The notes below the pieces were generated by a model, which had not been told where the DNA came from, made no database searches, and worked only from the letters and a program-made list of their open reading frames with translations. Position numbers and translations under genes: made by a program. A stretch of DNA of 64,000 nt. It comes from Actinomycetota bacterium. Its GTDB lineage: Bacteria > Actinomycetota > Acidimicrobiia > IMCC26256 > JAENVU01. Below are positions 15,161-63,203 of the stretch, in pieces. Every line of letters begins with the position of its first letter. The first letter of the stretch is position 1. The stretch lies in the NCBI GenBank assembly GCA_016870395.1, contig VGBT01000003.1:62001-126000 (forward strand), given 5' to 3'.

Positions 15161-15210
15161 TGGGTTTGTGCGATCAGGAGCGAATACCGCTCCTCTCGCA
15201 GCAAACCGGG
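15161..15210 (+). repeat. Dispersed hairpin repeat, family 1, copy A
   Basis: Inverted repeat with outer arms GGTTTG/CAAACC and inner arms AGGAGCG/CGCTCCT around the loop AATAC. It lies 58 bases after the gatC stop and 18 before the gatA start. Oriented left to right it reads TTTGTGCG, then AGGAGCG-AATAC-CGCTCCT, then CAAACCGGG, matching copies B, C and D. Confidence 0.75.
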
Positions 15211-15227
15211 AGCGCCGAGGTGGAGCG

Positions 15228-16655
15228 ATGACGGCCACCTCGACCGCGGTCGGGATCGCGGGTGCGGTGCGCTCCGGTGAGCGGTCCGCGCGGTCGGTCG
15301 TGGAGGAGCACCTCGCCGTGATCGCCGCGCGCGACGCGGAGCTGCACGCGTGCAACCATGTCATGGTCGACGACGCGCTCGCGACGGCCGACGCCGTGGA
15401 CGCAGCGGTCGCGCGCGGTGAAGACGCGGGCCCTCTGGCCGGGGTGCCTGTCGTGTTGAAGGACAACCTCTGCACGCGCGGTGTCCCCACGACGTGCTCA
15501 TCCCGGATCCTCGACGGGTGGCGACCGCCCTACACCGCGACCGTGGTCGAGCGCCTGTTGCTTGCAGGTGGGATCCCGGTGGCGAAGGCGAACCTCGACG
15601 AGTTCGCGATGGGTTCGTCCACCGAGAACTCCGCGTTCGGCCCCACGCGCAACCCGCACGACACCTCTCGGGTCCCGGGTGGCTCGAGCGGTGGGTCTGC
15701 CGCCGCGGTCGCCGCCGGCTATGCACCCCTGGCCTTGGGCTCCGACACGGGTGGCTCCATCCGTCAGCCGGCTGCGCTCTGCGGTGTGGTGGGGGTGAAG
15801 CCCACCTACGGTCGCGTCTCGCGCTTCGGGCTCGTCGCCTTCGCGTCGAGCCTCGACCAGATCGGCCCGTTGGCCACGACGGTCGACGATGCTGCGCTGC
15901 TCCTCGAGGCGATCTGGGGTCCTGACGCGATGGACTCCACCGCCATCCCCTCGCAGCCGGAAGCTCTCGGTGGGGACACCGACATCGCGGGCATGCGCAT
16001 CGGCATCGTCGAGGAGCTCACCGACGTCGAGGGGATCGCGCCGGAGGTGAAGGCCGCCGTCGAGCGGGCGGCGGCGGGTCTCGACGCGGCGGGCGCCAGG
16101 GTCGAGCGGGTGAGCGTGCCGAGCTGTGCCTACGGCCTGTCTGCGTACTACCTCATCGCTCCCGCAGAGGCATCGTCGAACCTGGCCCGCTACGACGGCG
16201 TGCGCTACGGACTCCGCGTCGACGCGGCCGACGTGGCCGAGATGAACGCGAAGACCCGGGACGCGGGCTTCGGAGCCGAGGTCAAGCGACGCATCATGCT
16301 GGGCACGTACGCCCTGTCGGCCGGGTACTACGACGCGTACTACGGGCAGGCGCAGAAGGTGCGAACGCTGATCATCCGCGACTTCGCGCAGGCCTACGAG
16401 CGGTTCGACGTGCTCCTGTCACCGACCTCGCCGACCGAGGCGTTCCCACTCGGGGCGAAGACGGCCGACCCGCTGGCGATGTATTTGAGCGACGTGTGCA
16501 CGATCCCGACGAACCTCGCCGGACACTCGGCGATGAGCGTGCCGTTCGGTACCGGGGCCGAAGGCCTGCCGGTGGGGGTGCAGGTGTTGGCGCCCGCGCA
16601 GGGCGAGTCCGTCATGTTCCGCGTCGCACGCGCCGTTGAAGGCATCGTGGCGTGA
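15228..16655 (+). CDS. gatA: Asp/Glu-tRNA amidotransferase subunit A
   Basis: 475 residues, normal length. This amidase-signature protein releases ammonia from glutamine for transamidation of misacylated tRNA. The Ser-cisSer-Lys triad maps to K78 ('VVLKDN'), S153 in 'GGSSGGS' and S177 in '[11 protein letters not shown]'. The ATG at 15228 gives the standard N-terminus and follows a purine-rich GGTGGAG. Although part of gatCAB, it is preceded by a strong hairpin (repeat copy A) that might reduce or separate its expression from gatC. The stop overlaps the gatB start (GTGA). Confidence 0.96.
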
Positions 16656-18109
16656 CGTCCTCGAATGTGTACGAGGCTGTCATCGGGCTCGAGGTTCACG
16701 TCGAGCTCGCCACCACGACCAAGCTCTTCTGCGGTTGCGCGAACGAGTTCGGGGCCGAGCCCAACACGCACGTGTGCCCGGTCTGCCTGGGGCTTCCCGG
16801 CTCGCTGCCGGTGCTGAACCGCCGTGTCGTCGACTTCGCGCTGCGTCTCGGCGAGGCACTCCACTTCGACGTGCCGCCCAGCTCGATCTTCCACCGGAAG
16901 AACTACTTCTACCCCGACATGCCGAAGGACTACCAGGTCAGCCAGTACGACGCACCGATCTGCGTCGACGGCTGGCTCGAGGTCGACGGCGACCGGATCG
17001 GCATCGAGCGCGCGCACATGGAGGAGGACACCGGCAAGACCACTCACGTCGGCGGCGGCGGGAGGATCCACGACGCCGCGCACAGCCTGGTCGACTACAA
17101 CCGCGCCGGCGTGCCGCTCATGGAGATCGTCAGCCGACCCCACATCCGCTCGGCCGAACAGGCCCGCGACTACGTCGGTGAGCTGCGTGCGGTGCTGGAG
17201 GCGATCGGCGTCTCCGACGTGAAGATGGAAGAGGGCTCGATGCGCGTCGATGCCAACTTGTCGCTGCGCGAGGTCGGGAGCGAGATCCTCGGCACCAAGG
17301 TCGAGGTCAAGAACATGAACTCCCTTCGCTCGCTTGGACGGGCCATCGACCATGAGATCGCCCGCCAAGCCAGGATGCTCGACGCCGGTGAGCGCGTCCT
17401 GCAGGAGACGAGGCACTGGGACGAGGCTGCCGGCGTGACCCACGGCATGCGGTCCAAGGAGGGGTCGAGCGACTACCGGTACTTCCCCGAGCCCGACCTG
17501 GTGCCCGTCGCTCCGACGCAGCAGATGCGTGACGCGGCGCGTGCTGCCGTGCCCGAGCTGCCCGCGGCGAAGCGAGCGCGCCTGGTCGAGGAGTGGGGGA
17601 TTTCCGAGAGCGACGCGCGGGTGCTCGTCGAGTCTGCCGCCCTCGCTCGCTACGCAGAGGCCGCGGTGCTTGCGGGCGCACTGGGCAAGGACGTGGCCAA
17701 CTGGTGCCTGGGCGAGGTGCTCGCGCACTGCAACGAGCACGGGCTCTCGGCGGAGGTGCTTCCACTCGCCCCCGACGGCTTGGCCGAGCTCGTAGGTCTC
17801 GTCGCCGACGGCACGCTCTCGCGCAACCTCGCCAAGGAGGTGCTGCGAGAGTGCCTGACCAGACCCGTGCGACCCAGGCAGCTCGTCGAGGAGCGCGGTC
17901 TGGCGCAGGTCAGCGACGAGGGTGAGCTGGCAGCTCTGGTCGACGAGGTGCTGGGTGCGAACGCGGCGGCGGTGCAGGAGTGGCGTGACGGCGACGACAA
18001 GGCGCGCAAGCGCAAGCGCGGGTTCCTGATGGGCGAGGTGATGAAGGCGTCCAAGGGGAAGGGTAACCCGCAGGTGCTCAACCGGCTCCTCGACGACCGT
18101 CTCAGGTGA
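16652..18109 (+). CDS. gatB: Asp/Glu-tRNA amidotransferase subunit B
   Basis: 485 residues, full length. GatB holds the tRNA and carries out kinase and transamidase steps. '[12 protein letters not shown]' and the zinc-type cluster '[19 protein letters not shown]' are at the N-terminus. '[15 protein letters not shown]' and 'EDTGKT' mark the catalytic cradle, and a helical tail domain (about 330-485) binds tRNA. It starts with GTG overlapping the gatA stop. Its own stop overlaps the PIG-L start, so the four genes form one translation-coupled run. Confidence 0.96.
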
Positions 18110-18843
18110 TGGACCGGCCCGAGTTCGCGACCGACGCAGGCGTCGAGCGGATCCTGGTCGTCGTGGCCCATCCCGACGACATCGACTTCGGCGTCGCCGG
18201 CTCGGTCGCGACCTGGACCGACGCGGGGATCGAGGTCACCTACTGCCTCGTGACGAGCGGCGACGCCGGCGGGGACGACCGCGACCAGCCGCGCAAGGAG
18301 ATGGCGCGGGTGCGCGAGGCCGAGCAGACGGCCGCGGCCGCGCTGGTCGGCGTGCACCGGCTCCGGTTCCTGCACCAAGCGGACGGCCGGGTGGAGGCCA
18401 ACCTCGACCTGCGCCGGGACCTCTCGCGCGTGATCCGGCAGGAGCGTCCCCAGCGGGTGATCACCCAGTCGCCGGAGCGTTTGTGGGACCGTATCTACGC
18501 GAGTCATCCCGATCACCTTGCGGTGGGTGAGGCAACCACCGCGGCGCTGTACCCGGACGCGCGGAACCCGTTCGCGCATCCGGACCTGCTCGACGGCGAG
18601 GGCCTCGAGCCCTGGACCGTTCCCCAGCTCTGGCTGATGGCACGTCCGGATCCCAACGTCGCCGTCGACGTCACCGACGTCCTCGAGCGCAAGATCGCCG
18701 CACTGCAGTCGCACGCCTCGCAGGTGCAGGACCCGACGATGATCGAGCGCCTGATTCGCGACTGGGCCGCAGACTCGGCTCGCAACGCGGGCCTGCCGGA
18801 CGGGCGTTGCGCCGAGATCTTCCGCGCCGTCGACACCCGCTGA
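18109..18843 (+). CDS. PIG-L (LmbE-like) deacetylase
   Basis: 244 residues. 'VVAHPDDIDFGVAG' near the N-terminus supplies the zinc-binding His and Asp of the family, and 'HPDHLAVGEATTAALYPDARNPF' the later histidines. PIG-L proteins deacetylate N-acetylglucosamine derivatives, including mycothiol precursors (MshB) and S-conjugates (Mca). The closing region fits an Mca/MshB-like protein, but the substrate cannot be fixed. ATG 18109 overlaps the gatB stop by one base; GTG 18106 is an alternative. Confidence 0.85.
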   Translation: MDRPEFATDAGVERILVVVAHPDDIDFGVAGSVATWTDAGIEVTYCLVTSGDAGGDDRDQPRKEMARVREAEQTAAAALVGVHRLRFLHQADGRVEANLDLRRDLSRVIRQERPQRVITQSPERLWDRIYASHPDHLAVGEATTAALYPDARNPFAHPDLLDGEGLEPWTVPQLWLMARPDPNVAVDVTDVLERKIAALQSHASQVQDPTMIERLIRDWAADSARNAGLPDGRCAEIFRAVDTR

Positions 18844-18863
18844 CCCGCATCCCCACCCCGCGT

Positions 18864-18919
18864 CCCCCGGGTTTGTTCGCTCTGGAGCGGTATGCGCTCT
18901 TCGGAGCACAAACTGGGGG
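18864..18919 (-). repeat. Dispersed hairpin repeat, family 1, copy B
   Basis: On the plus strand GGGTTTGT and ACAAAC bracket GGAGCG-GTATG-CGCTCT; read on the minus strand it matches copies A and D (loop CATAC). It begins 14 bases past the putative stop (18933) of the minus-strand gene fragment, and also lies 21 bases after the PIG-L stop of the plus strand. Confidence 0.75.
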
Positions 18920-62855: not shown

Positions 62856-62863
62856 CGCGTGCA

Positions 62864-62869
62864 TACGCT
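62864..62869 (+). promoter_or_regulatory. -10 box of the gene at 62876
   Basis: TACGCT 6 bases before the ATG. Confidence 0.45.
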
Positions 62870-62875
62870 GGCGGG

Positions 62876-63130
62876 ATGCGGCGATCGATCGACGATGCTC
62901 TCGATGACCACCCGCCCGACGACGAGTTCCCGGCGGTGTCCTGGATGGTCGGGCTCACCGACGACCCGAACGCCTCCGACGACGGCGAGCCGCGGGTGAG
63001 CGTCACCCTCGAAGAGCGCGGTTCGGCCGGCAGGGGGATCGTCGCGCACCTCGCGCCCGAGACCGCACGCCGCATGCGGGCCGCGATGGGCGCGGCGCTC
63101 CGCGAGATCGGAGAGGACCCCGGGGCCTGA
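62876..63130 (+). CDS. Small hypothetical protein
   Basis: 84 residues, acidic, with no membrane helix. 'FPAVSWMVGLTDDPNASDDGEPRVSVTLEERG' suggests beta strands, and 'VAHLAPETARRMRAAMGAALREIG' one C-terminal amphipathic helix. Family not recognised. The clear -10 box and codon pattern argue that it is real. Repeat copy D starts about 22 bases after the stop. Confidence 0.6.
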   Translation: MRRSIDDALDDHPPDDEFPAVSWMVGLTDDPNASDDGEPRVSVTLEERGSAGRGIVAHLAPETARRMRAAMGAALREIGEDPGA

Positions 63131-63151
63131 AGAGACCCCCCAGGGCCCGAG

Positions 63152-63203
63152 CCCCGTTTGAGCGGTGAGGAGCGCATACCGCTCCTCACGCACCAAACCC
63201 GGG
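63152..63203 (+). repeat. Dispersed hairpin repeat, family 1, copy D
   Basis: The strongest copy: GTGAGGAGCG/CGCTCCTCAC inner arms (10 bases, perfect) around CATAC, with outer GTTTG/CAAAC and a trailing CCCGGG. It lies 22 bases after a plus-strand stop and 13 bases before the end of the convergent ribB. Confidence 0.78.

Follow-up and report, generated by a model that had tools for sequence, protein, structure and literature searches.

A dispersed palindromic dyad near gene 3' ends in an Acidimicrobiia genome, a probable counterpart of repetitive extragenic palindromes

Repetitive extragenic palindromes (REPs) are described by Di Nocera et al. (2013, PMC3733652) as dispersed, imperfect intergenic palindromes that lie mostly between convergent or unidirectional genes, near gene 3' ends, some of them being specific to one species. 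The same source gives the members of the GTAG and CGTC super-families a length of 20-40 bp and an unpaired GTAG or CGTC tag, and the niche near gene 3' ends is also treated in PMC2817692. A comparable element, a dyad with a core of 49 bases, recurs in a stretch of 64,000 nucleotides (referred to throughout as the window) from contig VGBT01000003.1, positions 62,001 to 126,000, of an Actinomycetota bacterium of the Acidimicrobiia (assembly GCA_016870395.1). An earlier note on this DNA had described a four-copy family of hairpins; the source genome (G000; 2.98 Mb in 97 contigs, 98.93% complete) holds at least 67 sites. The reading that we consider probable is that the dyads are extragenic palindromes of a REP-like kind, confined to this species within the set of genomes searched. 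The family would have been gained in this lineage and copied, and its core would be kept by a predicted protein reading half-sites in the duplex.

Family size, anatomy and probable gain in one lineage

The exact core pattern GAGCGNATACCGCTC matches the genome 24 times, against one match for its reversed control. A model built from 25 oriented copies was run on the genome and on 60 relatives. In the genome, 132 matches at E<=1 merged across both strands into at least 67 sites, a lower bound because 150 of 2151 first-look candidates were scored. Among the relatives, two of them congeneric, no match to the family fell below E 0.05 under stricter filters with which weak matches are lost; two weak matches were seen at E 0.05-0.06, in G054 and G030. 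The possibility that the family is shared more widely was rejected after a contig scan for GAGGAGCGNATACCGCTCCT, in a collection from which the source-genome records are possibly absent, returned four single matches in unrelated taxa, about the level of chance (estimate two).

The two half-sites of each copy flank a loop that resembles CATAC, and each of them has an inner block, AGGAGCG, and an outer block that approximates GGGWTYGT. Two of the 67 sites were gapped in the alignment, leaving 65 copies for pair counts and mirror frequencies; anatomy, flank identity and half-swaps were analysed on 63. Conservation in these 63, whose flanks are complete, is concentrated in blocks at positions 10-15, 22-28, 30-32, 34-40, 46-53 and 55-56, with weak conservation at positions 19-20 and 42-45. 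The flanks, of about 20 bases, are C-rich on the 5' side and G-rich on the 3' side in convergent and in both co-directional contexts, and their identity between copies (mean 0.36, maximum 0.59) is that of column-shuffled flanks (0.36 and 0.57). Identity between cores averages 0.69, with a spread of 0.075 vs 0.057 after shuffling, so that the core has some substructure. The copies have the core alone in common, and there is no hint that one locus was recently copied from another. Tagged REPs frequently form dimers of opposite orientation. Doublets with a spacing of 63-65 bases occur four times among the 67 sites; in two of them the partners share an orientation and in two they face opposite ways.

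Two side observations concern variants of the element. Four sites (G000 C15:18816, C11:49667, C3:142633 and C37:5738) carry GCGAGC or CCGAGC in place of GCGCTC in the 3' inner arm, which breaks the inner stem, and may form a subfamily. The half-site CGGGWTYGTGCG has 24 exact matches in the genome and none for its reversed control; the 11 that lie outside the 67 sites (for example G000 C2:109486, C5:1677 and C6:5200) could be single half-sites or decayed elements.

Comparison with relatives suggests how the copies arose. Four relatives were searched with fragments of the neighbour genes of 13 sites, and the window copies were compared in three relatives. Orthologous junctions were readable at 14 sites, namely 10 of the 13 (those whose two neighbours lie side by side in one relative or more), an additional site and three of the four window copies; the second window copy lies outside the comparison, its neighbour genes not being adjacent in the relatives searched. 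At all 14 sites the family is absent from the relative. Relative to the source genome, the gaps of the two congeners, G001 and G002, are shorter by 27, 37, 37, 55, 95, 95, 96, 97 and 97 bases at convergent element gaps (nine comparisons) and by 48, 60, 84, 84, 104, 113, 113 and 138 bases at co-directional ones (eight comparisons), with medians of about 95, a single site often contributing two comparisons. Among the window copies, the gatC/gatA gap of 124 bases corresponds in both congeners to an overlap of 4 bases as ATGA (128 shorter), the gap of 96 between the amidase gene at 32485 and the AtuA-family gene to one of 24 (72 shorter), and the gap of 85 between genes 62876 and 63216 to an overlap of 4 bases as CTAA (89 shorter). 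Gaps free of the element have a median difference of 0 in the same two genomes, both co-directional (32 comparisons, -13 to 55) and divergent (three comparisons, one of -22). The opposite case is a site on contig C28, where the gap in G005, a genome of a sister genus, measures 113 bases vs 92 in the source genome. Since the element gaps are shorter in the congeners and the family is absent at the compared junctions, the simplest reading is that this lineage acquired the elements as additional DNA, including at gene pairs that overlap. The contention that the element is something other than a random mobile palindrome is not supported by these comparisons, as lineage-specific inserts fit a mobile palindrome better.

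Duplex dyad or RNA stem

An RNA element of the kind that had been proposed would, if selected for its pairing, be expected to show compensatory change. RNAalifold, applied to 25 copies, retained the inner five pairs alone with a covariation term of 0. Over 14 named pairs in 65 copies, paired cells amounted to 83.7% vs 84.2% in shuffled data, double changes to 11 cells vs 16.7, and the covariation score to 0.072 vs 0.082. Pairing drops sharply, to 38-43%, when the register is slid, which is expected of any palindrome. The two halves of a copy also fold worse together than halves swapped between copies, both on the oriented strand (-20.1 vs -22.2 kcal/mol, z +4.3) and on the other (-20.5 vs -22.5, z +2.9). 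Positions 29 and 33, which tend to identity (CATAC or GATAG) and not to complementarity, may account for part of this difference. Selection on pairing is thus not borne out by the 65 copies, while the accompanying statement, that the element is conserved beyond what pairing needs, holds for its sequence.

Base frequencies at mirrored positions agree closely, within 0.02-0.08 at positions 10-14 and 22-28. Position 13 has C 0.18 and T 0.80, and its mirror C 0.18 and T 0.82; position 11 has A 0.34 and T 0.58, and its mirror A 0.40 and T 0.51; G at position 23 stands at 0.75, and at 0.71 in the mirror. Equal and independently varying preferences in both half-sites are the pattern expected of a dimeric protein that reads duplex DNA, and suggest that such a protein may act here. 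The copies would have spread by some transposition-like copying and would have survived best where neither a promoter nor a coding region was broken. Their core may have been kept because a putative sequence-specific protein, either a mobilising activity or a protein of the host, reads both half-sites in double-stranded DNA, in which case the transcript hairpin would be a by-product of the dyad and not a target of selection.

Several observations weigh against this interpretation. Mirrored frequencies diverge by 0.18-0.43 at positions 15-21 and 29, and some mutual information is present in the mirror pairs 11-51, 20-42 and 29-33 (z 3.2, 3.4 and 4.7), with no excess of complementary pairs. The decay of a once-perfect palindrome could also leave symmetric, uncorrelated variation, and we know of no protein that binds the dyad. 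With regard to gain, the only convergent control without an element comes from a single gene pair, and that pair shows a difference of its own, 34 bases (two comparisons). No target-site duplication was resolved in junction alignments with relatives that are about 75% identical, and the insert ends show no conservation in 63 copies. The published REP tags are likewise missing: GTAG or CTAC occurs near the edge in at most one of 63 copies, CGTC in five on the 5' side and one on the 3' side, and GACG in two and seven, respectively; no 4-mer at a fixed offset is found in as many as half of the copies. A search for the Y1 (RAYT-type) transposase family PF01797, the enzyme that goes with REPs of the GTAG type, whose controls matched in five of 14 genomes, gave no match in the source genome, other transposase families being outside that search, and none in six further genomes of the same taxonomic family (G001-G006, 68-91% complete). 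Mobilisation by a RAYT is accordingly unsupported, with no Y1 transposase in this genome or the six others.

Position at gene ends and alternative explanations

Gene context was assigned with a codon-based gene caller trained on the stretches around the elements. The 67 sites comprise 34 between convergent genes, 14 co-directional and running along the genes, 10 co-directional and running against them, two divergent, two that fall within a called gene and five at the edges of contigs. The description of the copies as lying just downstream of a stop extends to the genome, in that 58 of the 60 classifiable intergenic sites occupy gaps with at least one stop codon, mostly convergent ones, and at 54 of the 60 a called stop lies within 80 bases. 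Among gaps of at least 50 bases, elements were found in 32 of the 45 that are convergent, in 24 of 115 co-directional ones and in two of 53 divergent ones (chi-square p=6e-14), figures in which the contrast between gap types alone is meaningful because the sampled stretches were centred on elements. Cores in co-directional gaps are nearer to the stop (median distance 25 bases) than to the next start (median 56; p=0.03). The companion claim of a constant orientation did not survive, and fixed orientation relative to genes was rejected: co-directional gaps across the genome hold 14 copies in the same and 10 in the opposite orientation (p=0.54), or 11 and seven where the strands differ by at least 10 bits. 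The convergent window copies at 18867 and 63154 are uninformative on this point because either orientation there is downstream of a stop.

The dyad, private to the species, might have spread to no fewer than 67 gene 3' ends and then been kept by selection as the binding site of a putative protein with a marking or insulating role at the ends of genes, chiefly convergent ones. Each lineage of the group would have its own family of such sites, as might be illustrated by the present family in the species, R2 (described below) in its genus and a further hairpin family in a sister genus; we regard this as unlikely. Similarly doubtful is a bidirectional terminator without a U tract, or a 3'-end stabiliser, in which a hairpin in either transcript would end transcription or block 3' exonucleases and would have spread by insulating convergent genes. 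The position of the sites behind stop codons, strongest between convergent genes, speaks for such a role, as do the strong hairpins that three of the four window copies form on both strands and the C-rich, G-poor composition between stop and core (first 20 bases past the stop: C 0.52 and G 0.23 with an element, C 0.39 and G 0.36 without one). C-rich, G-poor sequence could suit Rho. However, no selection for pairing is seen, a U tract is absent (of 63 copies, one has TTTT near the 3' end when the oriented strand is read and none when the other is), and the stretch 14800-19300, which includes two copies, gave no terminator-like match. Copies also occur within co-directional pairs, among them gatC-gatA, whose genes overlap in two congeners; strong termination at such places would carry a cost. 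Of the earlier suggestion of a U-less terminator or stabiliser, the non-random 3'-end position therefore stands, but the argument from orientation fails and selection for pairing is not supported, leaving the role unproven.

A miniature inverted-repeat transposable element (MITE) of a classical DDE insertion sequence would account for the lineage-specific inserts, whose size is roughly constant (84-104 bases) in eight of 17 comparisons, about half. We nevertheless give it little credence, in view of insert ends that carry no conserved terminal inverted repeat, the central 49 bases alone being shared and the flanks alike in composition only, and of the failure to resolve a target-site duplication against relatives of about 75% identity. 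A word of the DNA-uptake type, occurring in inverted pairs where genes end, would explain why 11 of 24 exact CGGGWTYGTGCG matches fall outside the listed elements with none for the reversed control, but uptake words number many hundreds of copies, against tens here with no abundance of single half-sites, and this explanation is very improbable.

The window copies, related palindromes and known systems

The four copies in the window (Table 1) are present where they had been placed, and their oriented sequences align. The statement that both arms pair applies to three of them, which fold far better than shuffled sequences on the oriented strand (z -5.6, -4.6 and -4.7), but only weakly to the 32400 copy (z -1.4), in which the loop reads CTATC and the 3' inner arm is imperfect. 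No match at gathering score was returned by an Rfam scan of the window, and membership of the window copies in a known RNA family was rejected on that result. Beside the second copy, the supposed gene remnant at 18933 is not called as a gene, the nearest called upstream stop being 274 bases off; a six-frame reading gives a possible frameshifted remnant on the minus strand of 18844-19189.

Table 1. Copies of the dyad in the window, family-typical flanks, and stretches carrying other palindromic families of the genus and a sister genus
Feature	Position	Strand	Context
Copy 1, 49-base dyad core	15162..15210	+	Between gatC (14801-15103) and gatA (15228-16655); Pfam: GatC, Amidase
Copy 2, 49-base dyad core	18867..18915	-	Convergent; between PIG-L gene (18106-18843, +) and luciferase-like monooxygenase gene (19190-20200, -); neighbours by Pfam
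Copy 3, 49-base dyad core	32400..32448	-	Between amidase gene (32485-33927, -) and AtuA-family gene (31012-32388, -); inner loop CTATC; neighbours by Pfam
Copy 4, 49-base dyad core	63154..63202	+	Convergent; between small gene without Pfam match (62876-63130, +) and DHBP synthase gene (63216-63860, -)
Upstream flank of copy 1	15140..15161	+	C-rich across the family; modest in copy 1
Downstream flank of copy 4, ending at convergent stop	63203..63215	+	G-rich across the family
R2 stretches			L106, L107, L110, L121, L122 (G002); L149-L155 (G001); L145-L148 (G000)
Third-family stretches			L125, L129, L133, L136-L138, L140-L142 (G005)

Other palindromic families emerged when k-mers were counted de novo in stretches sampled from G002 and G005. 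R2 (GTTTCAGCGCTGAATCTGAGCACCAGGGTGCTC...) is a second palindromic family of the genus, single or in tandem at a 34-base step, with 20 loci in G002, 11 in G001 and four weaker loci in G000; G003 and G005 gave none. Nine of ten fetched G001 loci have flanks among the R2-bearing G002 stretches, and the element is kept in all nine; loss of R2 in G002 would be invisible except as "no ortholog" (one of ten), because the presence of R2 was the criterion by which the G002 stretches had been selected. Conservation of the element exceeds that of the 30+30 bases next to it in seven of the nine loci and does not in the other two. R2 occupies the same niche, and the genus therefore holds at least two such families. 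The best of nine half-site comparisons between R2 and the 67-site family was matched by 14 of 2000 shuffles, which is no more than suggestive of relatedness. A third family, in G005 of a sister genus, consists of CCGCTCTTG, a variable hairpin and then GGCCGCTCGGGCC, with some doublets about 90 bases apart; by eye its hairpin arms change together, and it may possess a true stem.

If the REP-like reading is correct, the dyad would represent a REP-like family without the published tags or transposase, in a lineage for which a limited literature search gave no prior report, and what moves and what reads such repeats would become a testable question. The orthologous junctions indicate that repeats of this kind can enter gene pairs that overlap, gatC-gatA being one case. 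Setting mirrored half-site frequencies against covariation offers a simple test by which, for other families of repeats, sites in the duplex could be told from RNA stems.

Among the systems compared, R2 resembles the present family as a dyad of about 50 bases behind stop codons, single or tandem in the case of R2, but differs in sequence and in being common to orthologous places of G001 and G002. Intrinsic (Rho-independent) terminators share with it a GC-rich hairpin behind a stop codon, whereas the present element has no U tract, is conserved in sequence across loci and shows no covariation. In contrast to published REPs, the conserved core is longer (49 bases vs 20-40 bp) and neither a GTAG or CGTC tag nor a RAYT-type transposase was found here, for which reason the family is called REP-like and is not filed as a tagged REP; CGTC REPs are likewise described there (PMC3733652) without a dedicated transposase. 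The likeness to REPs, on the definition in PMC3733652, is one of placement near gene 3' ends, with 34 convergent and 24 co-directional sites among the 60 classifiable intergenic ones.

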